A stretch of DNA of 64,000 nucleotides, from NCBI GenBank assembly GCA_029532415.1, contig JAQOTA010000034.1, positions 620,001 through 684,000 on the forward strand. Direction: 5' to 3'. A program made the translations under genes and the position numbers. Positions 15,378 to 34,497 of this stretch are shown one piece after another. The notes below the pieces were generated by a model. It was not told where the DNA came from, searched no databases, and worked only from the letters and a program-made list of their open reading frames with translations. This DNA is from Marasmius tenuissimus (Eukaryota; Basidiomycota; Agaricomycetes; Agaricales; Marasmiaceae). Each line of letters begins with the position of its first letter. Within the stretch, counting starts at the first letter, position 1.

Positions 15378-16546
15378 CTACTTTTTTAGGCGGTTCAGGC
15401 CTCCGAACTTCATCGCCGCAGATACGTATCCCTCCATAATGTCCTCATCACTGATGCTCTCGAGGCGAGCGAGCTCCCGTCGGATATAGGTGACAAGCTC
15501 CAGCATCAGCTCTGGGTAGCGAACATACTTGTCGACCTGGTCAGGGAGATAATCGTGAACACCTGATCCATCATCGCTTCTTTCCTCTTTCTCAAAGTCA
15601 ACCTTCTCGGGATTGACGACGCTGCCTCCTACTAGGTTGACTGATCTTCTGAAAGCTGGGGTAGAGGAATCTGAGTCAGAGTAAGCGATGCCACGAGCGC
15701 CACGGGCACCCATCAGGTTCCGCCAAACTGCCGCCGCCAGTTCTGCGTCGCCTTGAACTAGTCCGAGATCGAACGACATGCCCATGCCCATCCACTGTTC
15801 CTTGAAGATCTTCATTTGACGAGTGACTAGTCGTTCTGGTGCTCTGCTACCTCGTTTGAGCTTTCCGTCTGCTGGAATGTTCGGGTTGACGTAGAACGAG
15901 GTGAATGATGTATACGGAGGGATGGGAGGTATGGAAGGTTGTAGAATGGCCCGTATGCGGTCTTCAATGTCAAGGAAGAAATGGTCGACCAAGGACTGTA
16001 CGTAGTGTTTCCCGTGAGGGTCAGGGAGGGCACGTAGACGGACAGTGAGGATCCAGATGTGAAGATTCGCAACCGTGAACCAAGATTGGAATGTCGGAGG
16101 AAGATCACATTCTGTCAAACTCTAGATTAGCACAGAGCCTCGGAGGAGAAGAGGCGACACAAAGAGCCTGGGGTGGTGCTTAAACACTTACCATTCTGCC
16201 AAAACTCTCTATTCGCATCTGGTGCACTCACACAAAGGTCCTGATACAGTATGAGCGTTCTCCGCCCCGATATCTGTTTATCCGTATTGTATCCGAGCAC
16301 AGTCACCAGCTTGTCGAACCAGAACTTTGTGGTTGGAGAAGTCTGTATCTTTGTAGCAAGCCATGTTGGCTGGTGCGCTTTTGGTTCGGGCTGGGTACTG
16401 GACTTGTTGTGAGGGAAATCCTTTTTAGATGTGCGGGAGGTTTGTGTCGATTTTAGTCGTCTGGGAGCATTGCCAGCAACACGACACTGGTGAAGATGGA
16501 CTAGTGACCTCGGGACTATTGGCCGGGTGTGAAGCAGTCTAAGCAT
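15378..16546 (-). CDS. CBP3: ubiquinol-cytochrome c reductase chaperone (Cbp3/UQCC1 family)
   Basis: A mitochondrial protein of about 360 residues on the minus strand in two exons, joined across an 80-nt intron at about 16112-16191. The N-terminus is Arg/Ser-rich with few acidic residues (MLRLLHTRPIVPRSLVHLHQ), a typical mitochondrial presequence; an in-frame ATG five codons upstream (16561) is also possible. The body matches the Ubiq_cyt_C_chap domain, with the conserved region FQSWFTVANLHIWILTVRL, then DHFFLDIEDRIR and the later KIFKEQWMGMGMSFDLG segment. With Cbp6, Cbp3 binds newly made cytochrome b at the mitochondrial ribosome exit and hands it to complex III assembly. The Ser/Asp-rich stretch (YSDSDSS) near the C-terminal third is an insert-like feature. 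Confidence 0.85.
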
Positions 16547-16982: not shown

Positions 16983-18690
16983 ATGTCAGTCGGTAACATT
17001 CTTAGCAAGCTCTTTCCCAGACCGTCTTTGTCACCTTCCGCAATATCCCCTCATATCTTCCCTGGAGTCACTCCAGAGTCAACGAAGACAGTGAGGAACG
17101 TTCTTGAGGATAATTACAAGAAACATCATATCTTTTTTAATGACAAGAGATTCCACAAGTACGTTTTCTCCCTTGAACATTTGCAACTCATAGACGCCGA
17201 TTGACGGCTGCTCTAGTCATATCATCCATCGTGCTCTCGCAGTGTGGGCTTTAGGAGGGGACGCCCATGTTATACAGGCTGGCTACGATCACGATAAATC
17301 CTCCCAGAGGCCATCGTACGAATCCCCGGAGCCTATTACCCGCGACAATTTCAAGGATCACTTGGGCGACGAAAAGTAAGAAAAGTTTCTTAGTGATTAC
17401 TGGTTTCAAGTCATCTTACTCATTCGCTGTACAGTTTCTACGACGGTTATCTCAAATACTTCGTTGCCGAACTAGACCAAAGCAGCGTCGGGAAGGTCAT
17501 CGAGGAATCTGTCTTCTCCCCCGCCTTCAACTTTGCAGTGGAGAACAAATTTGGCGAGCATCCGGAAATGCTCAGTCGATTCTTGGACGGCCTTTTACAC
17601 CCAATGATACATACCGGATACGGCGTGGAATTTGACCTCCCCGGAATCGTAGCTGAAGGTTAGTTCACTTCGGGTTGAGCACCTGATATCTTCCAAGACT
17701 GAGTTCGCTCCAGGTTTAGCGCAGGCTGCAGTTCACAAGGCTTCGAGCACCACCATAGTCCCACCCACCGCCTTTAGTGCGGATTCGATGCCGTCGGATG
17801 GTTCCCTTTCCTCACGCTTGTACCAAATGACTTTCGGTTCGAAAAACGCCACCGCTGGAAAAACCTCGCCCCATGCGTTTACCACCCTCGCGCGGGTTTT
17901 GAAGGATGACAAGGTTAAAACTGGAGACCCAGACGCAAAGAGCATGTACGTAGCGGCACTGGAGGAGTCAGGGGAAGCGATTCACAAGCATGTTTCTGAA
18001 TGGGCCGAGTTCGACCCCTCGGATCCTGAGATCGTGAAGCGCAAAGTGGAGGAGCTCCAGTGGGTCAACGTCTTGTTTTACGCTATTCCTGGCTTCGAAG
18101 CTGCAGAGAATAAGGAATTCAAAGCTGACTTCTTCACGTGAGTTTGACAATATCTTCAGGGTCTTGGCCTACAGCGACTGATCACGAACTTTTCCCCTGG
18201 CAGAATGCACCTTGTTACTTCCTCACTATTCCTACCGTCCTTGATTGCGCCTCTCTCGCCAGCGTCACAACACCTTCTGCTACGTAGCTACTTCGCTTCC
18301 AGCCTCGGTTGGTATATCGGTCGAATCGGCAAAAAGCCGCTCGACATCGGACGTTTCTTCGCCGCTGATACTGCCACTCCCACTCTTATGCCCACCCCGG
18401 AGAAGTCAGCACCCAATTCACTAAGTGCTGAGGCTTCGAACCCCAATCCTTGGCTGGGAATCATAAATCAATCTATCAACCACCTTGATGATCATCTGTG
18501 CAAGATTCAGAGGGCTTTGGGCCATTACTCGACGTTGTATGGATGGAGAGCGACGGAGGATTCGGAATTTAGTGCAACAGAGTTGGAGGGTGCTGAGAAG
18601 ATTGATGGGACGTTGTTCATTAGGGCCGCGGGGCTGACGGCGAAGAGGTTGGCGAGGGAACAGGAGGGAGATGGCAATCCCTGGGATTAA
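16983..18690 (+). CDS. questin oxidase-like protein (AflY / DUF4243 family)
   Basis: A gene of about five exons for roughly 470 residues. The start MSVGNILSKLFPRPS is followed by a family-like segment NHIIHRALAVWALGG and, later, [27 protein letters not shown], both typical of the questin oxidase-like domain (GedK, AflY). His-rich motifs in these segments fit the family, which catalyses Baeyer-Villiger-type ring cleavage of anthraquinones (questin to desmethylsulochrin; versicolorin-pathway step for AflY). The substrate in this fungus is unknown. No polyketide synthase or other pathway enzyme lies nearby, so this is an orphan family member and need not act in a toxin pathway. It ends …REQEGDGNPWD. 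Exons were joined through GT-AG introns at about 17160-17215, 17377-17434, 17659-17713 and 18138-18203. Confidence 0.8.
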
Positions 18691-21284: not shown

Positions 21285-21469
21285 TACCGTTACCTCGATG
21301 TCTTTCCACCTTTGATGATTACATCAATTGCTGTTCTAATATGTGAAAAATGTTGAAAAGGTGATGGAAGGGGTGAAGGGGGGTTTGAGAGATCACAGTT
21401 TCTTGATTTAGCCATTCCTATTGTACATATTGTGTGATAGATAATAGGTCCCTCGAAAACGCCAGTAGC

Positions 21470-23159
21470 TTATTTCTTCAAGTGAACTACCTCGTCGAAA
21501 ACATTGGGCGAGTAATCCATGAGAGGACCTGCACGAAGAGCTGTGCTGGAAGAGAAGTGGGCCATTGGCTTGTTCACGCCTTCGACGTGTTTAGCTTTCC
21601 ATTCCGTGAAGTTCGTATAGCCGATAAGGACTTGCAAGCTGTAGTCAGCGGAGATCGAATCATCATCGAAAGGTTCGCCAGCTGGGATGTTACGGAACCT
21701 AAATCCAATATCAATGAAAGAAACGAAGCGTCGGCATGCAAACTTTACTCACCATCTCATTGTCTCCTTCTCATCTTGTTGTTCCCACTTGAAGGTGAAT
21801 GTATCACCAGGACCGAGGATCTTGATTTTTTTCGGCGCAGGTTTCTGAATGAGCGAAGTCGGCTTGCGATGGGTCGTAGTGCGCTGTGCAACCGAGTGGC
21901 ACGAGGCGCATGCGCTGACAAAGTTGTCTGCCGGTCTACAAGAAGAGGTTAACCTGACGACCACGACAAGAACAGGGATCAACGTACCCGTTCATACGCC
22001 CGTTCCAGCCCCATGTCGGTCGAGATCCACCGAGTTCCTTGAGGAGCTCAAGAGCAACAGGGTTGAGCCAGAGCTCCTGGGGACGAACGCCGCTATCGTA
22101 TTTCTCCTGGGTGAGATTAGGGTCATTGCCCCATTGCAGGCCGACAGGGATCATGTTATCCCACTGCTTCACAGGCGGAAGCTGGATGGGTTTTCAGCTC
22201 TCAGGATTGATCGACTAACTTCAAGAACGCGGACAGACGTGCATTTGGGTTAGCATGGCGGCCGTCATAGACAAAGGTTCCAAAAGTCCATCCGATAGGA
22301 GCACGCTCGTCGCGAGCAGCAAAGTCAATTTGGACGAGTCTGACGGGATTTGCCGTGTTCAGCCGCACTTTGGGGTCGGGGACCACATTGGGATCGGTGG
22401 GAGGCTTGGCAATACAGGCTTCCCAGACTGGGGAGCAATGCATCGAGGGAACTTCGTCATCCGTCGCGGTATTGAAGAGGTTCTTGCAGATGAGAGATCC
22501 GTGGGGGAACTTGAGGTTGGTCTCCCAGGTGGGTTGATTGGGATTCTGCCAGACGCCGCCGAGAACGGATGCAGCTAAAGACAGTCAGTCAACTTACTTG
22601 TGCGAGCATTAATTAACGAACCTTCCGAATTGAAATAGCCACAAGCCCAGCACTGGAGAAACCTGTCCTGATTTTTCGCAAGCTCATTAGGGGGAGTTGC
22701 ACGTTCGAATGTCAAGCCGTTGATAGGCTCCCGACCGTTGTCGCTGTAGTGCATCCATGGAGCATGGTACCAGTCGCGGACCTACAGACAAAGTAAGCAA
22801 ATTGCAGCACTCCGGATGACTAGCGACCATTCGCAAACCTTGTTCTTCCGCACCACAAATCCATTCTCAACGTTGCCCTCGCAGAAATAGCTCCTGATCA
22901 ATTCGCAGTAGAGCTTAGGGCGTTTCTTGAAGTCGACGTGCAACCATGGCTTGGGATCGAATGGTAATCGACCTGGATCTGGGAGCTGGGGCAGTCCAGA
23001 GAAATCGTCACCTTCGACCTCTGGCAGCACACGGGCACGATGAGGATAGTCCTTGGGGTGAGGATAGTCGTTACGAATAGCCCATGGTTGATAGGGCTCC
23101 GGTGCTTGATGAACGGAGGACGTGTTGAATTGGATTTCAGCTGGAGTAGGAGCTGCCAT
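21470..23159 (-). CDS. c-type heme (CxxCH) protein, copy 1
   Basis: Six exons (1419 nt) give 472 residues. Introns at 22782-22838, 22575-22621, 22182-22242, 21936-21987 and 21699-21752. There is no signal peptide or mitochondrial presequence (MAAPTPAEIQFNTSSVHQ). A Pro-rich N-terminal third leads to VRDWYHAPWMHY, WACGYFNSE, VLGGVWQNP, DFAARDERAP and GWTFGTFVYDG. One heme-binding motif, CASCH, sits at about residues 345-349 in NFVSACASCHSVAQ, with Phe four residues before the first Cys. Downstream ETMRW (near residue 397) could supply a Met ligand. The layout recalls bacterial monoheme cytochrome proteins of about this size, from memory and not verified; it is not mitochondrial cytochrome c. 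The function is unknown; a covalently bound heme is inferred. The third intron appears to use a GC donor in this copy only. Confidence 0.82.
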
Positions 23160-23882
23160 GGCTAAGATCGTATGGAGGATGGGAAATCCATGAACTCAAG
23201 ACCATGGCTTTTATATGCCAGTTTTTCTTCATGAATAAACAAGGCATACACGGCGGCGTGACTGCATTGTGGAAATTTCCTGTCAATTAGATGTGAGTGG
23301 ATCATAGATTTTTTTGAACGTACCGACAAGTCTAAAAGACCTATGATACCTTGCATATCACCTTGCAGCTGCCTCGAGGCTCGTGTGGTGGATATTTGAA
23401 TCATCAACACCGGGTCGTTCATTCATGTAGGAGGTGATAATCTACCGGACTGGCAAACAGCCGGAATGTGGGGTATATTATCCTGACATCGGGCGAGACA
23501 GTGACAATGTTGCCTATCCCTAAATGATAGTCAAACTGTGGAATACGCAGCTCAGCTGGGACCCGCACGAGGTCTTTCTCGTTCATTCCTGAGCGACGTC
23601 TTGTTCTTGCTGGTAATTTGAGCGTTGTCATTGATTGAAGAAGAGACGAGGCCCAGTTTCCACGCCCTATCCGCGCCCGGAATGTGCCTTTCACCTGTAC
23701 CCGAATGGGGTCACGGACGCTCTATTCTGGTCTGTAAGTGTCATCAACCTATTACAGACCCTCAAAAATCCAAGAATGAGGATGGAACTCGAGGAAGTAT
23801 ACATTTTTCAATCCCTGTACGTCCACGTCGATTTTATTCTTTCCCCCCATCTCGTTAACCGCGTCGACGTCCAACTATAGTC
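23160..23882. promoter_or_regulatory. shared bidirectional promoter region of pair 1
   Basis: The 723 bp between two divergent start codons (23159 minus, 23883 plus). On the minus strand a TATA-like CATATAAAAG (complement of 23208-23217) lies about 50 bases upstream of the cytochrome-like start; copy 2 has CATATATAAAC at the same distance. This conservation supports a real core promoter. Coregulation of the two genes is inferred from the arrangement. Confidence 0.55.
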
Positions 23883-24851
23883 ATGTCCACAAAACTACCC
23901 CAGTGTCCTGTCTCTGGCCAGACAGCTAGCTCGACGAACGGCCTTGCGAAATGCCCAGCGTCGATCGCGAACATCGACCCGCGCAACAACATGCCAGTTG
24001 AAAGCCAGACCCCCGCAACTGGCCAGGCCAGCGAACTGTCTATTGAGCGTGTCACATCCTCTATACCGCGTCCAGCAGAGTCTACGTCTGGGCATCAGTC
24101 TAATAGTGAGCCTACCGCCGAGTACTGCCAGCACGACCTGGCTAAATAATGTCGTTAGCTCAGGACAACTGGGAGTACCCCTCGCCGCAGCAGTTCCATA
24201 ACGCACTGTTAAGGAAAGGATACGACACACCAGAAAACCAGGCTGAATCGATGGTCTTCATTCACAACGAGCTCAATGAATATACCTGGGGACAGGTGGC
24301 GCGATGGGAATCGAGGTTTCATGGCGGGTGAGCTGTCTTGTCATAGTTCGTGTCTCTTCCACAGTGACATTCGGGCTTCAGTGAGGAAGAAGCTGCCAAA
24401 CTCCAGCTCGCGTCTTTCTCTGGTATTCATGGACATCTCTCGAACAAAGCTCGTCTCTTTCGATACGGAAAGCGGATTCTCCCATCGTACTTCACGTCAG
24501 TGCCGGTGCTTATCTTACTCGATCTCTTTCTGACCCGTGTTCAGACTACCAGAACCATTCGATCGTCACGACTGGATCGTACGTCGTCCGACGAGCGGCC
24601 AAGAAGCTCGATATGTGATTGACTACTACCGTTTGAAGGATGACGAGGGCGACGATGCGTTCTATATGGATGTGAGGCCGGCTTTTGATAGCGTTTCCAA
24701 CGCATCAGCGAGAGTTGCTGCTGTGGTGCTCGATAAGGTTGCTTCTGCGGGTGGAAGTCGCAAGGCAAACTGGTCTTTGTTCAGCTCAATGGCAATCATG
24801 ACAGTGATAATCAGCGGGTGCCTAATTGTACCTATGATAGGTCGCAGATAA
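23883..24851 (+). CDS. holocytochrome c synthase (heme lyase) paralogue, copy 1
   Basis: Four exons (813 nt; introns 24106-24158, 24328-24381, 24496-24544) give 270 residues. The N-terminus carries two CP heme-regulatory-like motifs (PQCPVSGQ and AKCPASI), as in fungal CCHL. The core has the family hallmarks in order: [25 protein letters not shown], the segment [11 protein letters not shown] with the His that binds heme in HCCS (His154 in human), [27 protein letters not shown] and [14 protein letters not shown] attaches heme to the CxxCH cysteines of cytochromes c and c1 in the intermembrane space. Unusual: the protein ends in a hydrophobic segment ([17 protein letters not shown]) followed by GRR, like a tail anchor, not expected in ordinary HCCS. 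The gene is divergent from the CxxCH gene, which makes that protein its likely substrate. Whether the usual CCHL gene lies elsewhere in the genome cannot be seen here. Confidence 0.9.
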
Positions 24852-25010
24852 ACGTCTGTTTTCTTGCTAGTACTGGCAAGCGCTGTTCTAATATGTGAAA
24901 AGTGTTCAAAAGGCAATGAGGGGGTTTGGGAAGTCTCAATTTCTTGATTTAGCCATTCTTATTGTACATATCGTGCAGTAGATGATGGGTCTCTTGAGAG
25001 CACCAGTTAC

Positions 25011-26698
25011 TTACTCCTTCAAGTGGAGTACCTCGTCGAAAACGTCGTGCGAGTAATCCATGTGAGGTCCTGCACGCAGAGCTGCGCTGGAGGAGAAGTG
25101 GGCCATCGGCTTGTCCACGCCTTCAACATGTTTAGCTTTCCATTCCGTGAAGTTCGCATATCCGATCATGACCTGTAAGCTGTAATCGGAAGAGATCGCA
25201 TCTTCATCGAAAGGCTCGCCAGCTGGGATGTTACGGAACCTAAATCCAATATCAATGAAAGAAAAGAAGCTTCGGCATACAAACTTTACTCACCATCTCA
25301 TTGTCTCCTTCTCATCTTGTTGTTCCCACTTGAAGGTGAATGTATCACCAGGACCGAGGATCTTGATTTTTTTCGGCGCAGGTTTCTGAATGAGCGAAGT
25401 CGGCTTGCGATGGGTCGTAGTGCGCTGTGCAACCGAGTGGCACGAGGCGCATGCGCTGACAAAGTTATCTGCCGGTCTACAAGAAGAGGTTAACCTGACG
25501 ACCACGACAAGAACAGGGATCGACGTACCCGTTCATACGCCCGTTCCAGCCCCATGTCGGTCGAGATCCACCGAGTTCCTTGAGGAGCTCAAGAGCAACA
25601 GGGTTGAGCCAGAGCTCCTGGGGACGAACGCCGCTATCATATTTCTCCTGGGTGAGCTCAGGATCATTGCCCCATTGCAGGCCGACGGGGATCGTGTTAT
25701 CCCACTGCTTCACAGGTGAAAGCTGGATGGGTTGTCAGCATTGATCGTTGGGCTTGCGAAAATCGCAGATAGGCTTACGTTTGGGTCAGCGTGGCGCCCG
25801 TCGTACATGAAAGTTCCATAACACCATCCGATAGGAGCACGCTTGTCGCGAGCAGCAAAGTCAATTTGGATGAGCCTGACGGGATTCGCTTTGTCCAGCC
25901 GCACTTTCGGATCGGCAATCGCTTTGGGATCGGCGGGAGACTGAGCAATACAGGCTTCCCAGACTGGGGAGCCATTCATCGAGGGAACTTCGTCGTTCGT
26001 CGCGGTACTGAAAATATTCTTGCAGATGAGGGAGCCGTGGGGGAAGTTGAGGTTGGTTTCCCAGTCGGGCTGATTGGGGTTCTGCCAGACACCGCCGAGC
26101 ACGGATGCAGCTACAGGCACATTTGTTAAATTTCACTTGGGTGAGTGTGGATCGACATACCTTCCGAATTGAAAAAGCCACACGCCCAGGACTGAAGGGT
26201 CCTGTTCTGGTTCTTGGCAAGCTCGTTGGCAGGAGTTGCGCGCTCGAATGTCAAGCCGTTGATGGGTTCCCGACCATTAGGACCGTAGTGCATCCAGGGT
26301 GCATGGTACCAGTCGCGAACCTACGATGAAGGTAAGCGAATTGCAGTGTGTCTGATGACTCGCAACTGGTCGCAAACCTTATTTTTCTCCAGCACGAATT
26401 TATTTTCAACGTTACCTTCGTAGAAGTAGCTCCTGATCAATTCGCAGTAGAGCTCAGGGCGTTTCTTGAAGTCGACGTGCAACCATGGCTTGGGATCGAA
26501 TGGTAATCGGCCTGGATCTGGAAGCTGGGGTAGGCCAGAGAAGTCGTCGCCTTCAACCTCTGGCAGCACACGGGCCGGATGAGGATGATCCTTGGGGTGA
26601 GGATAGTCGTTGCGAATAGCCCATGGTGTATAACCCTCTGGTGCTTGATGAACGGAGGACGTGTTAAACTGGATTTCAGCTGCGGTTAGAGTCGCCAT
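25011..26698 (-). CDS. c-type heme (CxxCH) protein, copy 2
   Basis: Paralogue of the 21470-23159 gene. Its six exons have exactly the same lengths (321, 160, 332, 194, 183 and 229 nt; 472 residues), with introns at 26321-26377, 26111-26160, 25723-25778, 25477-25528 and 25240-25293. It keeps NFVSACASCHSVAQ and the surrounding conserved segments. Differences are scattered through the N-terminal third (GYTPWAIRNDYPHPKDHP) and the C-terminal tail (ends VFDEVLHLKE). The intact frame, conserved splice sites and a change of the third intron donor to canonical GTAAGC argue that it is functional. Its promoter is now split by the retrotransposon, so expression may differ from copy 1. As for copy 1, there is no targeting presequence and the biological role is unknown. 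Confidence 0.82.
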
Positions 26699-27140
26699 TG
26701 CTGAGGTCGTATGAGAGGTGGAATATCCATGAAGTCAGAAACATGGTTTATATATGCTACTTGTGTTTCTAGAATAAAAGTAAGCCATGACAGTGGCGGA
26801 AATTTTGGGAAATTGCCTGTCAATGAACTGTGAACGGAACATAGATTTCTTGGAGTCATCAAGAGGTCTAGCAGACCTGCAATACCTCGCATGTGCCTCG
26901 AGGCTTGTGCGGTGGATTATTGACACCGGGCTTATTGTACAGGAGATACATCCATATATTGGGCTGGAGAACAGCCGAAATGTGGGGTAAATGATTTTGA
27001 CGTCGGGCAGGACAGTAGAAATGTTGGTTATGCCTGGAGCGACAGCCACAGTATGGAGTATGCAGGTCAGGTGGAGCCCGCATAGGACCTTCCTGGTTCG
27101 TTCCTGCGTTCTTGCTGACACTCGTCGCGGTTGCTATGAA
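26699..27140. promoter_or_regulatory. left part of the pair 2 promoter, up to the retrotransposon
   Basis: 442 bp upstream of the copy 2 cytochrome-like start, homologous to the corresponding part of the pair 1 spacer. A TATA-like CATATATAAAC on the minus strand (complement of about 26746-26756) stays about 50 bases from the ATG, so the cytochrome-side core promoter is intact, while more distal shared elements are cut off by the insertion. Confidence 0.5.
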
Positions 27141-27685
27141 TCGAGGCGAAGGCGGGTTCCAAGGGTAAGGAGCTGTCGCGAAGGCCTCGGCGCTTACACG
27201 TCGCCTCTCTTCCGCTTCCTCCCGTCACTGTGGTTTTCTTTATCTCTCCTTGTCCACTCCCCCACTCCATTTGCTCTCTGTCTATGCTTTTCGTAAGCAA
27301 ATCACTATTGTCTTTTCTACCTCAAAGCTGACTCCGTTGTCTAGCTTTGTTGTACCCCACTACAAGATCTATGTCTCAGTGGGGAGCTTCCCACCGCCGG
27401 TGCTATAGTTTATAGCTGAAGCCAGCGGTGGAGACGCCCAGGTTCCCTCTTTGCTTGGATCTCCTTCCTGGAACCTCGAGGTTCGTCTATTCTCTTCTAT
27501 CCCGCACTATTTCTCCTGACTTCTATCCCCCAGTGTCATCTATTCTCGTTGTCTATTCAACCACTATCTATTCCCCTGTTTCATCCCTCGAATTTCGAGG
27601 TATGACTATTCTATTCTTCTCTTTCTGTTGAAAGACCACTCACAGATCCCTCAGCGTAGCCTTCTTGTGCTCGCATTCACGCTGC
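27141..27685 (+). repeat. A1 split direct repeat of the Ngaro-like element
   Basis: 545 bp, identical by eye to A2 at 32056-32600. It contains strong inverted repeats: CCACCGC near 27389 pairs with GCGGTGG near 27427, with a ctatagtttatag palindrome in between, and GTGGG…CCCAC just upstream. Such folds are usual at the ends of these elements. A 67-codon open frame inside is present in both copies and is not taken as a gene. Confidence 0.9.
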
Positions 27686-27709
27686 TTCTCAGTTCCCATC
27701 TTAATATCA

Positions 27710-29011
27710 ATGTCAAGTGAAGATGTTGGAGTTCGCGCTAAGAGGTTCGAGAAGATTTTCGCAGACTTTGTTAAGGGAGAATTGGACGGGGTCACCACCG
27801 CCATTGAGCTTGCACAGAAGTTCAAGGACGAGGGCGCATCTGTTGCCGAGTCTGAGGATTATGTCAAGCAGGCTCAAACTCATCTCGAGTCCATCGTTCG
27901 AAATGGGCCAGGGAGACAGAAGACCCCCCCCGCTAGAGAGAGGACCCCTTCTGGTCTTGATGATGCCGGAGTCACGGAATTTAGGAAGCGTCGAGATGAG
28001 AGAGAGGCCGCAGAAGCTAAGGACAGAGACGACCGTTCCCGTAGAGCGTTCGAAGAAGCCAACTGGGCTAACTACCTCAACACTCTCAAAGCCTCGCTGG
28101 CTACCCCTGCTTCTTCGGCTGAGGTTGATGCTTTCCTCAGCTCCATCATTCCAAAGCACTCTCACTTCGGACTCCCTCCTGGTCTCGCCCTTGATCGTGG
28201 AGAACTGGACCAACTTGTCAACATCGACCCTCACATCGCGCAAACCAATACCATTCGTCTCCGCTACGTACAGGACAAGTCGGAACTCGAACTTGCTCTT
28301 CATAGGGTTCGGAATCTTCAGCTTACTGACCCTGTTCCCCACTCTGTCTGGAAGGATATCCTCCTCGACAGATACGTCAATTTCGACAAACTCAATCACG
28401 CTCTCCAACCCGGGTACAATCATTCCGACGAGCCCAAGTTGGAGCTCGGAGATCTTGTCATCTCTGATAAGAGTCGAATCGCAGCCAGGAAGCCTATCGG
28501 AAACGTGTCCGATTGGAACCGAGTCTTTGGCGCCTGGGCGGAGGCTGTATCAGCCGTCTATCCTCACCGCCGCGCTGAACTCCGAGCCTATCACTACCTC
28601 ATGTCAACGTTCTTCCGTAACCATTCTTCGAACCCACTCGTGGGGATCCGTCTCGACGATCGCATTCGCGAATCCTATTCACGATGCCCTTTCAAGCTCG
28701 ACGACCGAGACAAATTCACTGAGCACACCATTGCTCAGCTCTCCGCCTCCTCTGATATTTCGAAGAGGAAGGAGGCTCCTTCGGGGTTCGCCTCTCTCCC
28801 GAAACGTCCAGCGGGTCCTGTCTGTCTCAACTGGAACGGGAATCGCTGCAAGGACCCTTGCCCTTCTAACAGGAGGCATGGCATTTGCTGCCAGTGCAGT
28901 GGTTCTCACCGAGCCTGGGATAACCCCGACTGCCGTCGAGCCTTCAACTCACGATTCCAGCTCCGAACTGGAGACGATACGAAACCGGGTCCTGGTGGCT
29001 CAGCAGCCTAG
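27710..29011 (+). CDS. gag: Gag-like protein of the Ngaro-like element
   Basis: An uninterrupted frame of about 433 residues starting MSSEDVGVRAKRFEK. The N-terminal half is charged and helical; the C-terminal part carries a Cys/His-rich knuckle-like region (CLNWNGNRCKDPCP then GICCQCSGSHRAW and NPDC), probably nucleic acid-binding. This is the usual first protein of DIRS-order elements and would package the element RNA. It ends at 29011, and the RT domain is encoded in a different frame, so RT expression must rely on frameshifting, re-initiation or splicing. The whole gag region is also open in the RT frame. Confidence 0.8.
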   Translation: MSSEDVGVRAKRFEKIFADFVKGELDGVTTAIELAQKFKDEGASVAESEDYVKQAQTHLESIVRNGPGRQKTPPARERTPSGLDDAGVTEFRKRRDEREAAEAKDRDDRSRRAFEEANWANYLNTLKASLATPASSAEVDAFLSSIIPKHSHFGLPPGLALDRGELDQLVNIDPHIAQTNTIRLRYVQDKSELELALHRVRNLQLTDPVPHSVWKDILLDRYVNFDKLNHALQPGYNHSDEPKLELGDLVISDKSRIAARKPIGNVSDWNRVFGAWAEAVSAVYPHRRAELRAYHYLMSTFFRNHSSNPLVGIRLDDRIRESYSRCPFKLDDRDKFTEHTIAQLSASSDISKRKEAPSGFASLPKRPAGPVCLNWNGNRCKDPCPSNRRHGICCQCSGSHRAWDNPDCRRAFNSRFQLRTGDDTKPGPGGSAA

Positions 29012-29012
29012 A

Positions 29013-30896
29013 TCACTGATTTCACAATCACCGGTTCATTCATCGGTTACGGTCCCCGCGCTACGGAATTCTCTCCCTCTTCCACGTCATCGTCGAGGTT
29101 TTGGTTGGAAGGATCCGGCTTGTTTTCCAATCTCGCCAGCTGTTCTCGATTCCGAGACAGCGCCACCTCTACCTGGTCCTCCTCCTCACCTTTTCGAAGA
29201 CGCCTCTATTCAAGCCGCTCTTGCTGCTTATGGTTCATCGCATTGCAAGGTGGACACTCCCTTCAATGTTGATGCTTTCATCAATCTCCTCCATGATCAT
29301 CCTAATCGACCGCTCATCGATTCGGTTGCTCGGGGTTTTCGCGAGGGTTTCTGGCCGTTTGATGAAGGCGACTGGAAACTTGACTCTAATCGTTTTACGG
29401 ACAACTACGCGTCTGAGCCTGCAGACTTGCAGGCTATCTCTACCTATGCGACCAAGGAGTTGTCCAATGGACACTGGTCTCCTCAAATTCCCGAACTCCT
29501 GGACGGGATGGTCATATCTCCCATGTTCGTCGTATGGCAGCCTCAAGGGGATGGACTCCAACTCAAGCCACGTGTGGTGGTTGATCACACCGGGTCAGGC
29601 TTGAACGATGGAATCCCCAGAGAATCTTCCCGTGTCCGCTACGACAATATGCGTGATTTCGGACTCTCCATGCGCCACGCGAAGCTCTCCCATCCTAACC
29701 GCCGATTCGTCTGCTTCAAGAGTGATGTTCAGGGAGCCTTCCTCAACCTGCCAGCCCACCCCATCTGGCAGCTTCGCCAAGTTGTAGTTGTTGACAGGAA
29801 GCTCTACATCGTTCGTCGCATTATGCTTGGAACCAGAGCGTCTCCGCGGGTCTGGTGCACAATTTCTGCCCTTATCTGCTGGATTGGAGTTCGGAAGTTG
29901 GGCATCCGCAGTCTCCACGTCTACGTGGATGATTTCTTTGGCTATGACTTCGCCGACAACCTGATCCGCTATCGAGGTTTGAGGCGACCTCGTTCCCAGG
30001 TTCTTTTTCTGGTTCTCTGGGAACATATCGCATGCCCGTTCTCAGACGACAAACAGCAGCATGGTGAGGATCTCAAAATTGTCGGCTTTTGGATCCAAAT
30101 AAACGAGGGGGCTATCTCCATTCCGCCTTCTTCCATCGTGGACATTCAAGAACGAATCACTCGTTTCTTGTCTCATCCCATTCGCTCCCCCAACCTCCGT
30201 GCTTGGCAACAGCTCTGCGGCCACCTCAACTGGGCGTTGAACGTATTCCCTCACGCGCGACCAGCTCTCACGGAGTTGTATCGGAAGATGAAAGATAAAA
30301 ATCTTCCCCACGCAGCCCTGCCGGTCAACGGGGAGGTTCATCGGAACCTGCTTTGGTTCTCAGATGTATTAAATTCCGCCTCTGGGGTCCGGTTCATTGA
30401 TGATGGATTTTGGGCTGAGGAAGACGCCGACATTGTCATCCACACGGATGCCAGCGGAAACGATGGCCTGGCTTTTGTTTATTCAAACCGGGGCTACGTC
30501 TACCAACTCAGGAAGGTCACCGGGAAACGAGTGGTAGACATCTTCTTCCTAGAGCTCACTGCCATCTTATCCGCCATCCACCATGTCTGTTCCTTCCGCC
30601 TTCCACCGAAGCGCCTCCTCATCTTCTCCGATAGTCTTGACTCAGTTCAAGTCTTCGATTCTCTGAAAGCGGAAAACCCCATGCACAACGGGATCTTGCT
30701 CGCCATAGCTTCTATCATCATTTCCACTGGTATCGACGTCAGGGTGCGTCACATCCCAGGGAAGGACAACATTGCCGCTGATCTCCTTTCGCGGCTACTA
30801 TTCGACGAGTACTATCGTCTTTATCCCGCAAACAGCGTCGGCTATTTCAGTCCCCCGCGGGACATCATCCCGGCGCCGTGGCGAGAGCAGTTTTAG
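29013..30896 (+). CDS. reverse transcriptase and RNase H of the Ngaro-like element
   Basis: An open frame whose recognisable domains lie between about 29100 and 30896; the frame itself is open back to 27717 across gag, so no initiation codon is assigned. RT motifs in order: KPRVVVDHTGSGLNDG, a DVQGAFLNLP segment with the first catalytic Asp, and YVDDFFGY with the catalytic Asp pair (near 29925). RNase H follows, with HTDASGN, LELTAIL and FSDSLDSVQVF holding the acidic residues, and HIPGKDNIAADLLSR at the C-terminal side. The enzyme copies element RNA into DNA and removes the RNA strand. The frame ends at 30896, overlapping the recombinase start by 19 bases. No frameshift or stop is seen. Confidence 0.9.
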   Translation, partial: SLISQSPVHSSVTVPALRNSLPLPRHRRGFGWKDPACFPISPAVLDSETAPPLPGPPPHLFEDASIQAALAAYGSSHCKVDTPFNVDAFINLLHDHPNRPLIDSVARGFREGFWPFDEGDWKLDSNRFTDNYASEPADLQAISTYATKELSNGHWSPQIPELLDGMVISPMFVVWQPQGDGLQLKPRVVVDHTGSGLNDGIPRESSRVRYDNMRDFGLSMRHAKLSHPNRRFVCFKSDVQGAFLNLPAHPIWQLRQVVVVDRKLYIVRRIMLGTRASPRVWCTISALICWIGVRKLGIRSLHVYVDDFFGYDFADNLIRYRGLRRPRSQVLFLVLWEHIACPFSDDKQQHGEDLKIVGFWIQINEGAISIPPSSIVDIQERITRFLSHPIRSPNLRAWQQLCGHLNWALNVFPHARPALTELYRKMKDKNLPHAALPVNGEVHRNLLWFSDVLNSASGVRFIDDGFWAEEDADIVIHTDASGNDGLAFVYSNRGYVYQLRKVTGKRVVDIFFLELTAILSAIHHVCSFRLPPKRLLIFSDSLDSVQVFDSLKAENPMHNGILLAIASIIISTGIDVRVRHIPGKDNIAADLLSRLLFDEYYRLYPANSVGYFSPPRDIIPAPWREQF

Positions 30897-31876
30897 GTTC
30901 CAAGGGTGGTTCACGCCGAAGGCTGAACCACCCGAGCCTCGTCGACATAGACGAGCGCATCGAGTTTCTCAGGTTTAACGCTATCGAAAGTTCGACTCGT
31001 TCTGGTTACAACACGGGCGCGAAAGACTACATCAGCTTTTGCAGCCTTTACGATCTGCCACTCGACCCCACTCCTTTAACTCTAGCTCGATACATTTCCT
31101 ATACCTCGAAATTCATTGCCTCAGGCCCGAAGTATCTTTCTGGTGCCAGGCACTCCCTCGAGGGATCTTTTCCACACTTCGCAGAAAGCCGTGCTTCTCC
31201 TCTCGTTCAATCGGTCATCACAGGATCCAAAAAGGTTCGTGCTGACCCGGTCCTTCGCAAGGCACCTCTTCGTTGTTCGCACCTCCAACAGTTCAGCTCT
31301 CGCTATCTCTCCTCACCCTCGTATGACGACATCCTCTTCCTCACAATTCTGTCCACGGCGTTCTACGCATGCCATCGTCTCGGCGAATTGGTCTTTCGTT
31401 CACCTGGTGCTGTGGATTTTCGGAAGGTCGTCAAGCGTGCATCCTTCAATTCCACGACGTCTCACGTCTCCTTTCGGCTACCCTACCACAAAGGGGACCG
31501 TTTTTACCGGGGTACAGATATACTCCTCGGCCATCACGATGTCCTCGACCCTTACACCTTTCTGGTGCACTACGTAGCCATGCGAGACACCAAGTTTGGT
31601 GCTCGCCCACCATTATTCATTTGCGAGGATGGCTCTCACCCTACTCGCGCGTGGTTTGAGCGGCGCTATTTTGCTCTAGTCGGCAAGGAATTTGGTGGGC
31701 ACTCCCTTCGGGCCGGGGGTGCAACTTACTATGCCTCACTTGGCCTCTCTGAAACGATCATTCAGGCTCTCGGACGTTGGTCCTCGGACGCATGGAAAAT
31801 CTATATTCGCGACAACCCTACGGTGCGGGCGGAGTTGGAACTAGCAGCGATTCGTAAGGCCGCCCGAACTTCATGA
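30878..31876 (+). CDS. tyrosine recombinase of the Ngaro-like element
   Basis: An intact frame of 332 residues starting MARAVLGSKGGSRRR. It has an N-terminal SAM-like DNA-binding part (STRSGYNTGAKDYISFC…LDPTPLTLARYISY) and a C-terminal catalytic domain with the conserved residues in order: Arg in CHRLGELVF, His-x-x-Arg in GGHSLRAGG, and the final Trp/Tyr region LGRWSSDAWKIYIRD. This enzyme replaces the DDE integrase of LTR elements and joins the circular DNA form to the target by recombination, which explains the lack of target duplications. It overlaps the end of the RT frame by 19 bases in another frame. Confidence 0.9.
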   Translation: MARAVLGSKGGSRRRLNHPSLVDIDERIEFLRFNAIESSTRSGYNTGAKDYISFCSLYDLPLDPTPLTLARYISYTSKFIASGPKYLSGARHSLEGSFPHFAESRASPLVQSVITGSKKVRADPVLRKAPLRCSHLQQFSSRYLSSPSYDDILFLTILSTAFYACHRLGELVFRSPGAVDFRKVVKRASFNSTTSHVSFRLPYHKGDRFYRGTDILLGHHDVLDPYTFLVHYVAMRDTKFGARPPLFICEDGSHPTRAWFERRYFALVGKEFGGHSLRAGGATYYASLGLSETIIQALGRWSSDAWKIYIRDNPTVRAELELAAIRKAARTS

Positions 31877-31950
31877 CTACGACTCTCAATCACCATCTCT
31901 TTCTCACCGCCAGCCTCCCCTTCAACAGCAATTCCACACGCTTCTTTTTG

Positions 31951-32055
31951 GCTGTTCCTTTCGAGTCATTCTTCAATGGATTGTAGGCGGCCAGGGAGTC
32001 TCCTGCCGCCGTTTATGCCTATACTTTACTCGCACGGCGACTTATTAAGCTGAGG
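31951..32055 (+). repeat. B1 split direct repeat of the Ngaro-like element
   Basis: 105 bp, identical by eye to B2 at 32782-32886, and directly followed by A2. It contains an imperfect hairpin (GGCGGCCAGG … CCTGCCGCC, about 31987-32012). Confidence 0.88.
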
Positions 32056-32600
32056 TCGAGGCGAAGGCGGGTTCCAAGGGTAAGGAGCTGTCGCGAAGGC
32101 CTCGGCGCTTACACGTCGCCTCTCTTCCGCTTCCTCCCGTCACTGTGGTTTTCTTTATCTCTCCTTGTCCACTCCCCCACTCCATTTGCTCTCTGTCTAT
32201 GCTTTTCGTAAGCAAATCACTATTGTCTTTTCTACCTCAAAGCTGACTCCGTTGTCTAGCTTTGTTGTACCCCACTACAAGATCTATGTCTCAGTGGGGA
32301 GCTTCCCACCGCCGGTGCTATAGTTTATAGCTGAAGCCAGCGGTGGAGACGCCCAGGTTCCCTCTTTGCTTGGATCTCCTTCCTGGAACCTCGAGGTTCG
32401 TCTATTCTCTTCTATCCCGCACTATTTCTCCTGACTTCTATCCCCCAGTGTCATCTATTCTCGTTGTCTATTCAACCACTATCTATTCCCCTGTTTCATC
32501 CCTCGAATTTCGAGGTATGACTATTCTATTCTTCTCTTTCTGTTGAAAGACCACTCACAGATCCCTCAGCGTAGCCTTCTTGTGCTCGCATTCACGCTGC
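32056..32600 (+). repeat. A2 split direct repeat of the Ngaro-like element
   Basis: Second 545-bp copy of the A repeat, following B1 without a gap. The B1-A2 junction reproduces the ends of the element joined together, as expected for a copy derived from a circular intermediate. Confidence 0.9.
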
Positions 32601-32781
32601 CCACCCTCCACTCCCTGTTTTCTTTCCAATGCCTCTGATTGTAATTTTGGAATGTTACCTAACTCACTCGTCTAATCTCGTTGACGATACGATTGTATAC
32701 TCTACCACCACTCCGTTCCTGATAGTCTGGGTCCTATTTCCGAATGCCGCGACTGAAAACCTACTGTACTTGTATCGTTTA

Positions 32782-32886
32782 GCTGTTCCTTTCGAGTCAT
32801 TCTTCAATGGATTGTAGGCGGCCAGGGAGTCTCCTGCCGCCGTTTATGCCTATACTTTACTCGCACGGCGACTTATTAAGCTGAGG
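32782..32886 (+). repeat. B2 split direct repeat, right end of the Ngaro-like element
   Basis: Second 105-bp B repeat. It is separated from A2 by about 180 bases of unique sequence (32601-32781). Beyond 32886 the sequence becomes homologous to the spacer of pair 1 (gaagaagagatgagg compared with gaagaagagacgagg near 23635). Confidence 0.88.
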
Positions 32887-33168
32887 TGTGGTTATCGAAG
32901 AAGAGATGAGGCCACGCATTTCCCACGCCCTACCCTGACAATTATGTCTTTCATCTGTACTAGTACTATGCACCCAATTGAGGTCAAGTACGGCTACACA
33001 GCATCTATTCAGCTCTATTCCACTTGTCAACCTATCACAGTCCTTCAAACTCTAGAAAAAGGATGGCTCCCGAAGTAATCGGTACTGTATCATCCCTGTA
33101 CGTCCACGTCGTTTTTTTGTCCTTTCTCCCCATCTTTTTAACCGCGTCGACGTTCAACTCAGATAGTC
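32887..33168. promoter_or_regulatory. right part of the pair 2 promoter, after the retrotransposon
   Basis: 282 bp between the element and the second heme-lyase start codon, homologous to about 23635-23882. Added to the 442 bp on the other side it gives 724 bp, against 723 bp in pair 1, which confirms that the element entered an existing shared promoter. Confidence 0.55.
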
Positions 33169-34158
33169 ATGTCTACATCGCTACCCCAGTGTCCTATCTC
33201 TGGCCAGACAGCTAGCTCGACAAATGGCCTCGCAAAATGTCCAGCGTCACTTGCAAACATCGACCCGCGCAACAACATGCCAGTTGAAAGCCAGACCCTC
33301 GCAAATGGCCAGACGAACAAACTATCTATCGAGCGTGTCACATCCTCTATACCGCGTCCAGCAGAGTCTACGTCTGGGCATCAATCTAATGGTGAGTCTT
33401 CCGCTAAACAATGCGAGCCTGATCTGGCTCAATAATGTCGTCAGCTCAGGACAACTGGGAGTACCCCTCGCCGCAGCAGTTCCACAACGCATTGCTAAGG
33501 AAAGGATACAACACACCGGAGAACCAGGCTGAATCGATGGTGTTCATTCATAACGAGCTCAATGAATATGCCTGGGGACAGGTGGTGCGATGGGAATCGA
33601 GGTTTCATGGCGGGTGAGTTATCTTGTCATGGGTCGTAACTCATCCACACTCATCCACACCTGACCTTTACGCTTTAGTGAGGCAGAAGCTGCCAAACTC
33701 CAGCTCGCGTCTTTCTCCGGCATACATGGGCATCTATCCAACAAAGCTCGTCTCTTTCGATACGGAAAGCGAGTTCTCCCGTCGTACTTCACGTCAGTGT
33801 GATCGGTCTTCATTCCACTAGACCTGTTTCTGACCTGTATGTGTTCAGATTACCAGACCCATTCGATCGTCACGATTGGATCGTACGTCGACCGACGAGT
33901 GGCCAAGAAGCTCGATATGTGATTGACTACTATCGGCTGAAGGACGAAGAGGGTGATGACGCGTTCTATATGGACGTGAGGCCAGCGTTTGATAGTGTTT
34001 CCAACGCATCGGCCAGAATCGCTGCTGTGGTGCTTGATAAGGTTGCTTCTGCGAGTGGCACTGGCAAGACAAACCAGTGGTCTGTGCTTAGTTCAGTGGC
34101 CGTCATGACAGTGATGATTAGTGGGTGCCTAATCGTACCTATAATAGGTCGTAGATGA
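33169..34158 (+). CDS. holocytochrome c synthase (heme lyase) paralogue, copy 2
   Basis: Paralogue of the 23883-24851 gene, also four exons with the same first three lengths (223, 169, 114 nt; 816 nt in total; introns 33392-33444, 33614-33678, 33793-33848) and 271 residues. CP motifs PQCPISGQ and AKCPASL are kept at the N-terminus, and the core contains [11 protein letters not shown] with the heme-ligand His, [28 protein letters not shown] and [10 protein letters not shown]. The hydrophobic C-terminal segment ([17 protein letters not shown]) and its GRR tail are conserved between the two copies although neighbouring residues vary, which speaks for function. Regulation may be altered because about 5.7 kb of retroelement now separates this gene from its former partner. 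Confidence 0.9.
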
Positions 34159-34497
34159 TTGTCCGTTTTCTTACTACTATCGCTGTGTGGAAGATAGTAA
34201 TTCCTCTTGCGTGCTCGCTGCAAGTCCTTGACATGATTGTCGGTTTGGATGCTCGTTATCCTGTAAGTCCGACGCTTACAGATTTCCACAAGCTAAAAAG
34301 AGGACGAACTTTGATTGGTTTTAGAATGTTCCAGATAGAAGAGAGGTGTTCTAGTGAATTATAGAAGTACAAAGTACAATGCCAAGTCCGTAGCGCTTGA
34401 TTGAAGAATAGATGAAGGTATAAATTTAATGCTGACGTATGCTTGTTGTAAATGAGCTGATGAATTGATTTGCCCGAGAGGAGGGGAAAAGATAATT
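34159..34497. other. intergenic region, convergent genes
   Basis: About 340 bp between the heme-lyase copy 2 (plus) and the zinc-finger gene (minus). Shared 3' sequence with unit 1 stops within the first 40 bases. It should contain the terminators of both genes; nothing else is recognised. Confidence 0.4.

Follow-up and report, generated by a model that had tools for sequence, protein, structure and literature searches.

A likely bacterial-derived heme protein and its linked heme lyase paralogue in Marasmius tenuissimus and other Agaricomycetes

We analysed a stretch of 64,000 nucleotides (the window) from the basidiomycete Marasmius tenuissimus, covering positions 620,001 to 684,000 of contig JAQOTA010000034.1 in assembly GCA_029532415.1. 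It holds two copies of a minus-strand gene for a protein with a CxxCH heme motif, each divergent from a plus-strand gene for a paralogue of holocytochrome c synthase (HCCS). We think it likely that the CxxCH protein is a heme protein of bacterial derivation that is matured by HCCS in mitochondria and served, in some Agaricomycetes, by a dedicated and genetically linked lyase. To our knowledge, cytochromes c and c1 have been the only substrates ascribed to HCCS, which is described as refusing bacterial c-type cytochromes.

Results

Two divergent gene pairs

Both CxxCH genes are modelled with six exons encoding 472 residues and a single CASCH motif; both lyase genes have four exons, for 270 and 271 residues. 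A sequence-only reading of the window had described two such divergent pairs, and the gene models and matches to the HCCS family PF01265 agree with it:

21470..23159, minus strand: CxxCH gene, copy A (spliced model, 472 amino acids)
23159-22839, 22781-22622, 22574-22243, 22181-21988, 21935-21753, 21698-21470, minus strand: exons of CxxCH copy A (spliced model)
25011..26698, minus strand: CxxCH gene, copy B (472 amino acids; identical to P0001, NCBI PM082_021076 of Marasmius tenuissimus)
26698-26378, 26320-26161, 26110-25779, 25722-25529, 25476-25294, 25239-25011, minus strand: exons of CxxCH copy B
23883..24851, plus strand: lyase paralogue copy A, HL_A (270 amino acids; PF01265; hydrophobic C-terminal tail)
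23883-24105, 24159-24327, 24382-24495, 24545-24851, plus strand: exons of HL_A
33169..34158, plus strand: lyase paralogue copy B, HL_B (271 amino acids; PF01265)
33169-33391, 33445-33613, 33679-33792, 33849-34158, plus strand: exons of HL_B
23160..23882, no strand: intergenic region of pair A, 723 bp between the divergent starts

The short region between the starts of pair A is a possible shared promoter. A retroelement lying between CxxCH copy B and HL_B puts 6470 bp between the starts of pair B; the head-to-head arrangement is thus tight in one pair and split in the other. All introns of the CxxCH genes are GT-AG except intron 3 of copy A (22182-22242), which is GC-AG where copy B has GT-AG. 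The unspliced frame stops ahead of the heme motif, so that the integrity of copy A hinges on the splicing of this intron. For HL_B, the NCBI model (P0100) uses another start frame and misses the conserved N-terminus, which the DNA supports as normal.

The two CxxCH copies share 415 of 471 residues (12% differ) and the two lyases 243 of 270 (10% differ). Between copies, dN/dS is 0.175 at dS 0.36 for the CxxCH genes (computed on a 471-codon version of the model) and 0.123 at dS 0.38 for HL_A and HL_B. These ratios mean that the reading frames are not due to chance: purifying selection has maintained the CxxCH gene and the lyase gene of each pair. The claim that both frames are intact therefore stands, with the dependence of copy A on GC-AG splicing. 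One part of the CxxCH gene is more alike than the rest:

21680..22100 (about), no strand: near-identical tract between copies A and B, over a CxxCH exon

Intron included, this tract is 95-100% identical between the copies and its flanks about 70-90%, which points to a probable recent gene conversion across the heme exon.

An aromatic residue before the heme motif

Members of the CxxCH family are common among bacteria (255 confirmed loci) and occur in at least 48 named fungal records besides Marasmius; in the M. tenuissimus genome, only copies A and B were found. Of 98 family proteins, 97 have the motif. The fungal members form one clade in the tree, set off by a long branch (0.65). That the family is otherwise bacterial would fit contamination or an assembly artefact, an explanation that is refuted by the five introns, by two diverged copies, by the presence of the same family in many named fungal records, and by the fungal genes, Sec24 and a cytochrome bc1 chaperone among them, that share the 0.77-Mb contig.

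For HCCS, the residue at position −4 from the first Cys of CxxCH must be aromatic, according to the accessible text of PMC4158909, which gives heme attachment by HCCS in yeast as 80-90% for F15Y, about 40% for W, about 20% for I and none for A or E. Cytochrome c1 has Tyr at the −4 position (accessible part of PMC11727520), as has the c1 of Marasmius itself: GYQVYREVCAACH.

In 49 named fungal CxxCH proteins, −4 is F in 44, Y in four and V in one. No aromatic residue occurs at −4 in any of the 80 bacterial loci scored out of the 255 confirmed (P 72, V 2, Q 2, K 2, A 1, N 1; locus L081 was scored by its second copy, the main copy having T). Unlabelled proteins (n=46) carry P in 23, F in 11, L in five, I and M in two each, and A and H in one each, one having no motif; ten of the eleven with F lie inside the fungal clade. 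A 39-row alignment narrows the change to this site: G336, P337, D339 and N340 are invariant in fungal and other rows and position 342 varies in both, whereas position 341, the −4 residue, is F or Y in 24/24 fungal-clade rows and P, K or A in 15/15 others.

The tree suggests a single change, followed later only by replacement with Tyr, so that the shift counts as one event and then a lasting constraint. In its site and in the alternation of F with Y, the change matches what HCCS tolerates. On these sequence grounds, the fungal CxxCH protein is well supported as an HCCS substrate; it is not classed as a proven one, because the structural model discussed below shows no helix ahead of the motif and, being heme-free, may miss the enzyme-bound state.

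Divergent lyase clades

Three scanned lyase exons match Pfam PF01265 above its cut-off, and a profile search of the 71-Mb M. tenuissimus assembly finds four PF01265 loci: C16, which is of the housekeeping CCHL type; C20, a divergent lyase and presumably CC1HL; and HL_A and HL_B, the third and fourth lyase genes of the genome. In two quickly built trees, HL_A and HL_B fall within a clade (clade I; approximate likelihood-ratio support, SH-aLRT, 99 with 18 rows and 96 with 19) separate from housekeeping lyases such as C16. Its members come from Marasmius, Imleria, Lanmaoa, Sphaerobolus, Psilocybe, Amanita rubescens and Crucibulum, and from metagenome sequences. A second group (clade II) comprises two lyases of Clavulina and those of Tulasnella 427 and 408. 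The union of clades I and II is not rejected (approximately unbiased test, AU, p 0.166), nor is it shown.

The paralogues share with HCCS (PF01265; System III) the fold family, as judged by sequence, the axial His and most of the named active-site residues, and may be presumed to catalyse the same reaction. W79, Y81, P82, F87, A90, H110, N114, E115, F168, H177 and W179 are invariant in 25 aligned lyases; the residue list is that of the accessible part of PMC11727520, with the axial His equivalent to human H154, and was mapped by motif. Clade I nevertheless differs from HCCS beside the axial His, where the Phe two residues after it is replaced by R, K, E or N in 13/13, and at two prolines that housekeeping enzymes conserve. 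A hydrophobic C-terminal stretch further distinguishes clade I, being present in 17/19 of its rows and in 0/135 of the other lyases fetched; the structural model predicts, with low confidence, a terminal helix at 248-268.

Linkage recurs in other Agaricomycetes

We judged shared contigs from contig sizes and locus tags, setting the list of CxxCH proteins against those of the lyases. Because the lyase lists comprise 120 of 2453 and 120 of 5385 matches, a paralogue missing from them is no proof of its absence. Among the matches listed, a clade I or II lyase lies on the CxxCH contig in 5/6 species that have both, and a housekeeping lyase in 0/7. Besides Marasmius, where the CxxCH gene and a clade I lyase share a contig, these are Psilocybe cf. 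subviscida (same contig, locus tags 003438 and 003440), Tulasnella 427 (a contig of 11743 bp), Clavulina sp. PMI_390 and Crucibulum laeve, whose 3.28-Mb contig makes for weak linkage. The Clavulina contig, of 41241 bp, carries two CxxCH genes and two lyases (P0042, P0051, P0218, P0246), a double set that looks like a second duplication of the pair.

The two genes might be neighbours by inheritance alone, an ancestral block having been duplicated and passed on with no shared function. Unrelated genes can indeed be linked in fungi, and five species support the linkage here. Yet it recurs in both Agaricales and Cantharellales, chance is unlikely to have set an HCCS paralogue next to a protein whose motif is of the HCCS type, and the CxxCH and lyase trees both unite Marasmius with Imleria, a bolete, in preference to other Agaricales; we regard inheritance alone as very improbable. 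The trees also agree in joining Psilocybe with Crucibulum and Clavulina with Tulasnella, although their overall agreement is partial. Linkage and divergence together support the linked paralogue as a putative dedicated lyase of the CxxCH protein.

Two kinds of N-terminus

By a simple criterion applied without a predictor (a basic stretch free of acidic residues, then a hydrophobic stretch), 19/49 named fungal proteins have presequence-like N-termini; these belong to Ascomycota, Ceratobasidium and Neolentinus. Such N-termini resemble presequences sorted to the intermembrane space. Another 12/49 begin right at a conserved TPAExQFxTSS region, and among these are the proteins of every one of the six genera that have a clade I or II lyase; the remaining 18/49 are partial or unclear. 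The Marasmius protein has no presequence-like N-terminus. As HCCS coordinates the import of presequence-less apocytochrome c (accessible text of PMC4158909), the two kinds of N-terminus suggest, by analogy, one import route like that of c1 and another like that of cytochrome c, the latter with the linked lyase.

These data also bear on a different explanation, in which the CxxCH protein is matured by the housekeeping CCHL or CC1HL and the linked paralogue serves dose, regulation or another task. The aromatic −4 residue occurs in Ascomycota and other fungi with no paralogue among the matches listed, which means that a dedicated lyase is not needed for this trait, and the accessible text of PMC7140478 describes substrate overlap of the yeast lyases. 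Against it stand the two distinct lyase clades that each adjoin a CxxCH gene, the changes of clade I beside the axial His and at two prolines, and the lack of a presequence in the linked substrates. We consider this explanation unlikely, if the most serious of the alternatives.

Fold and possible relatives of the CxxCH protein

Searches of Pfam and NCBIfam returned no family above cut-off for the CxxCH protein. The nearest candidate is PF16694 (P460/c'-beta), which 23/39 members match at E up to 0.1; its best score in eight members scanned is 26.8 bits, below the cut-off of 27, and it appears in the precomputed annotation of 3/98 family proteins. The family is possibly a remote relative of the P460/c'-beta fold. 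It differs from that superfamily in length (about 470 residues against about 150), and K191, invariant in 38/38 rows of the alignment that have a residue there, would be only a candidate counterpart of the Lys that P460 cross-links to heme. By this resemblance, gas- or nitrogen-oxide-related chemistry may be its role.

A Foldseek search of the Protein Data Bank with the model of the CxxCH protein gave nothing significant, with no match under E 0.7. Among solved structures, searches by sequence brought up no relative of this protein (one chance match at E 0.69) and no match for the lyase; of two profiles searched likewise, one had no match and the other an unrelated one. In the neighbourhoods of 80 of the 255 bacterial loci no partner gene is widely shared, the largest other groups spanning 13 loci by Pseudomonas synteny, so no function can be read from the bacterial context. 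Literature searches, with poor coverage of subscription journals, turned up no described fungal lyase-substrate pair and no described fungal P460 relative; the accessible part of a review of P460/c'-beta proteins (PMC11928373) mentions neither fungi nor eukaryotes.

Surroundings of the pairs

27141..32887 (about), plus strand: retroelement between CxxCH copy B and HL_B, outside the module (from repeats and frames)
15381-16121, minus strand: ubiquinol-cytochrome c chaperone gene (PF03981, Cbp3), about 5 kb from the pairs
17653-18687, plus strand: questin-oxidase-like gene (PF14027), adjoining the module

The retroelement is very young: its two sets of nested direct repeats, 27141-27440 with 32056-32355 and 31947-32056 with 32778-32887, are 100% and 99% identical. 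It has reverse-transcriptase-like and tyrosine-recombinase-like frames, and a repeat order, A1-body-B1A2-B2, that we take to be that of Ngaro/DIRS-type elements; scanned against Pfam, neither of its two long frames had a match. The nearness of the Cbp3 gene to the pairs is probably due to chance. Other genes within about 10 kb encode a helicase, a C2H2 zinc finger protein and Sec24, and there is no evident partner among the genes over this distance.

Discussion

We propose that the CxxCH protein is a single-heme c-type protein, derived from bacteria, that would reside in the mitochondrial intermembrane space of fungi. Its heme would be supplied by HCCS-type lyases (System III) in place of the bacterial Ccm or Ccs machinery, and on the branch to fungi the −4 residue would have turned aromatic, giving the protein the same hook by which HCCS binds cytochromes c and c1. 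A duplicated lyase may then, in some Agaricomycetes, have become dedicated and genetically linked to this substrate; in Marasmius this lyase has changed residues near the axial His and a hydrophobic C-terminal tail that would serve as an anchor. Since the CxxCH protein of lyase-paired species has no presequence, the linked lyase probably also captures it at import, in the way that HCCS traps apocytochrome c. In relatives that have a c1-like presequence, maturation may fall to the housekeeping lyases.

Like cytochromes c and c1, the fungal CxxCH proteins combine CxxCH with an aromatic −4 residue, and their N-termini are c1-like in some and, in others, lack a presequence as in cytochrome c. They are otherwise unrelated to these cytochromes: larger, beta-rich, of bacterial origin and with no known respiratory role, their motif lying deep in the chain with no upstream helix in the model. 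The linked paralogues differ from known HCCS correspondingly, in being tied to one CxxCH gene that is neither cytochrome c nor c1.

Several observations weigh against this proposal. HCCS substrates use an alpha helix just before CxxCH, whereas in the predicted model of the CxxCH protein only residues 345-349 are helical at the motif and the preceding segment is not; the motif itself begins 345 residues into the chain, far from the N-terminus. These two features would suit a fungal protein without covalent heme, its cysteines forming a disulfide or metal site and its aromatic residue being structural. But CxxCH is kept, His included, in 24/24 fungal-clade rows, and the aromatic residue is found in fungi only, and solely as F or Y save in one defective model; we give a heme-free protein very little credence. 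That model, P0072, shortened and abnormal, is the sole case of V at −4. The eleventh unlabelled protein with F at −4, P0068 from JGI, falls outside the well-supported fungal clade and is possibly an early branch. The −4 shift lies, moreover, on the long branch to fungi, where much else changed, and the aromatic residue extends to fungi with no listed paralogue. As to linkage, Imleria badia has its CxxCH gene and clade I lyase on different contigs, and for Lanmaoa, Sphaerobolus and Amanita rubescens the matches listed include a clade I lyase and no CxxCH protein. Finally, a search for CcmF and CcsA in the Marasmius genome gave no family match, a weak negative because the same type of search also missed the PF00034 cytochrome c, so that intron-split genes can escape it.

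The sequence-only reading had seen here a self-contained module for a new protein. The association of lyase and CxxCH protein has fared well, given the recurrent linkage and the aromatic −4 residue, but a fixed tie of the protein to its lyase is not supported. Homologues with no adjacent lyase, which that reading had named as evidence against itself, count against it in a weak sense, namely that not every homologue is paired: most of the fungal records, including all Ascomycota, Mycena, Flammula, Neolentinus, Ceratobasidium, Naganishia and the other Tulasnella, have no paralogue among the matches listed. The family, moreover, is bacterial and widespread. That reading had not foreseen the bacterial origin, the adaptation at −4, the existence of two lyase clades or the difference in presequences. 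In its fullest form, our proposal is of a third natural class of HCCS substrate in fungi, a bacterial P460-like heme enzyme that gained the −4 hook on entering mitochondria, together with, in some mushrooms, a dedicated lyase and import trap that evolved at least once, perhaps twice, and is tail-anchored in clade I; we see the chances for and against this form as evenly balanced.

A natural third substrate of HCCS taken from bacteria would, if true, show which changes are needed to pass from System I or II to System III, and the contrast of Pro in bacteria with Phe or Tyr in fungi at −4 offers a natural series on which the recognition rule can be tested. The pairing of lyase and substrate would, in turn, amount to a specialisation of a classic housekeeping enzyme and would let protein import driven by a lyase be studied as a natural experiment.

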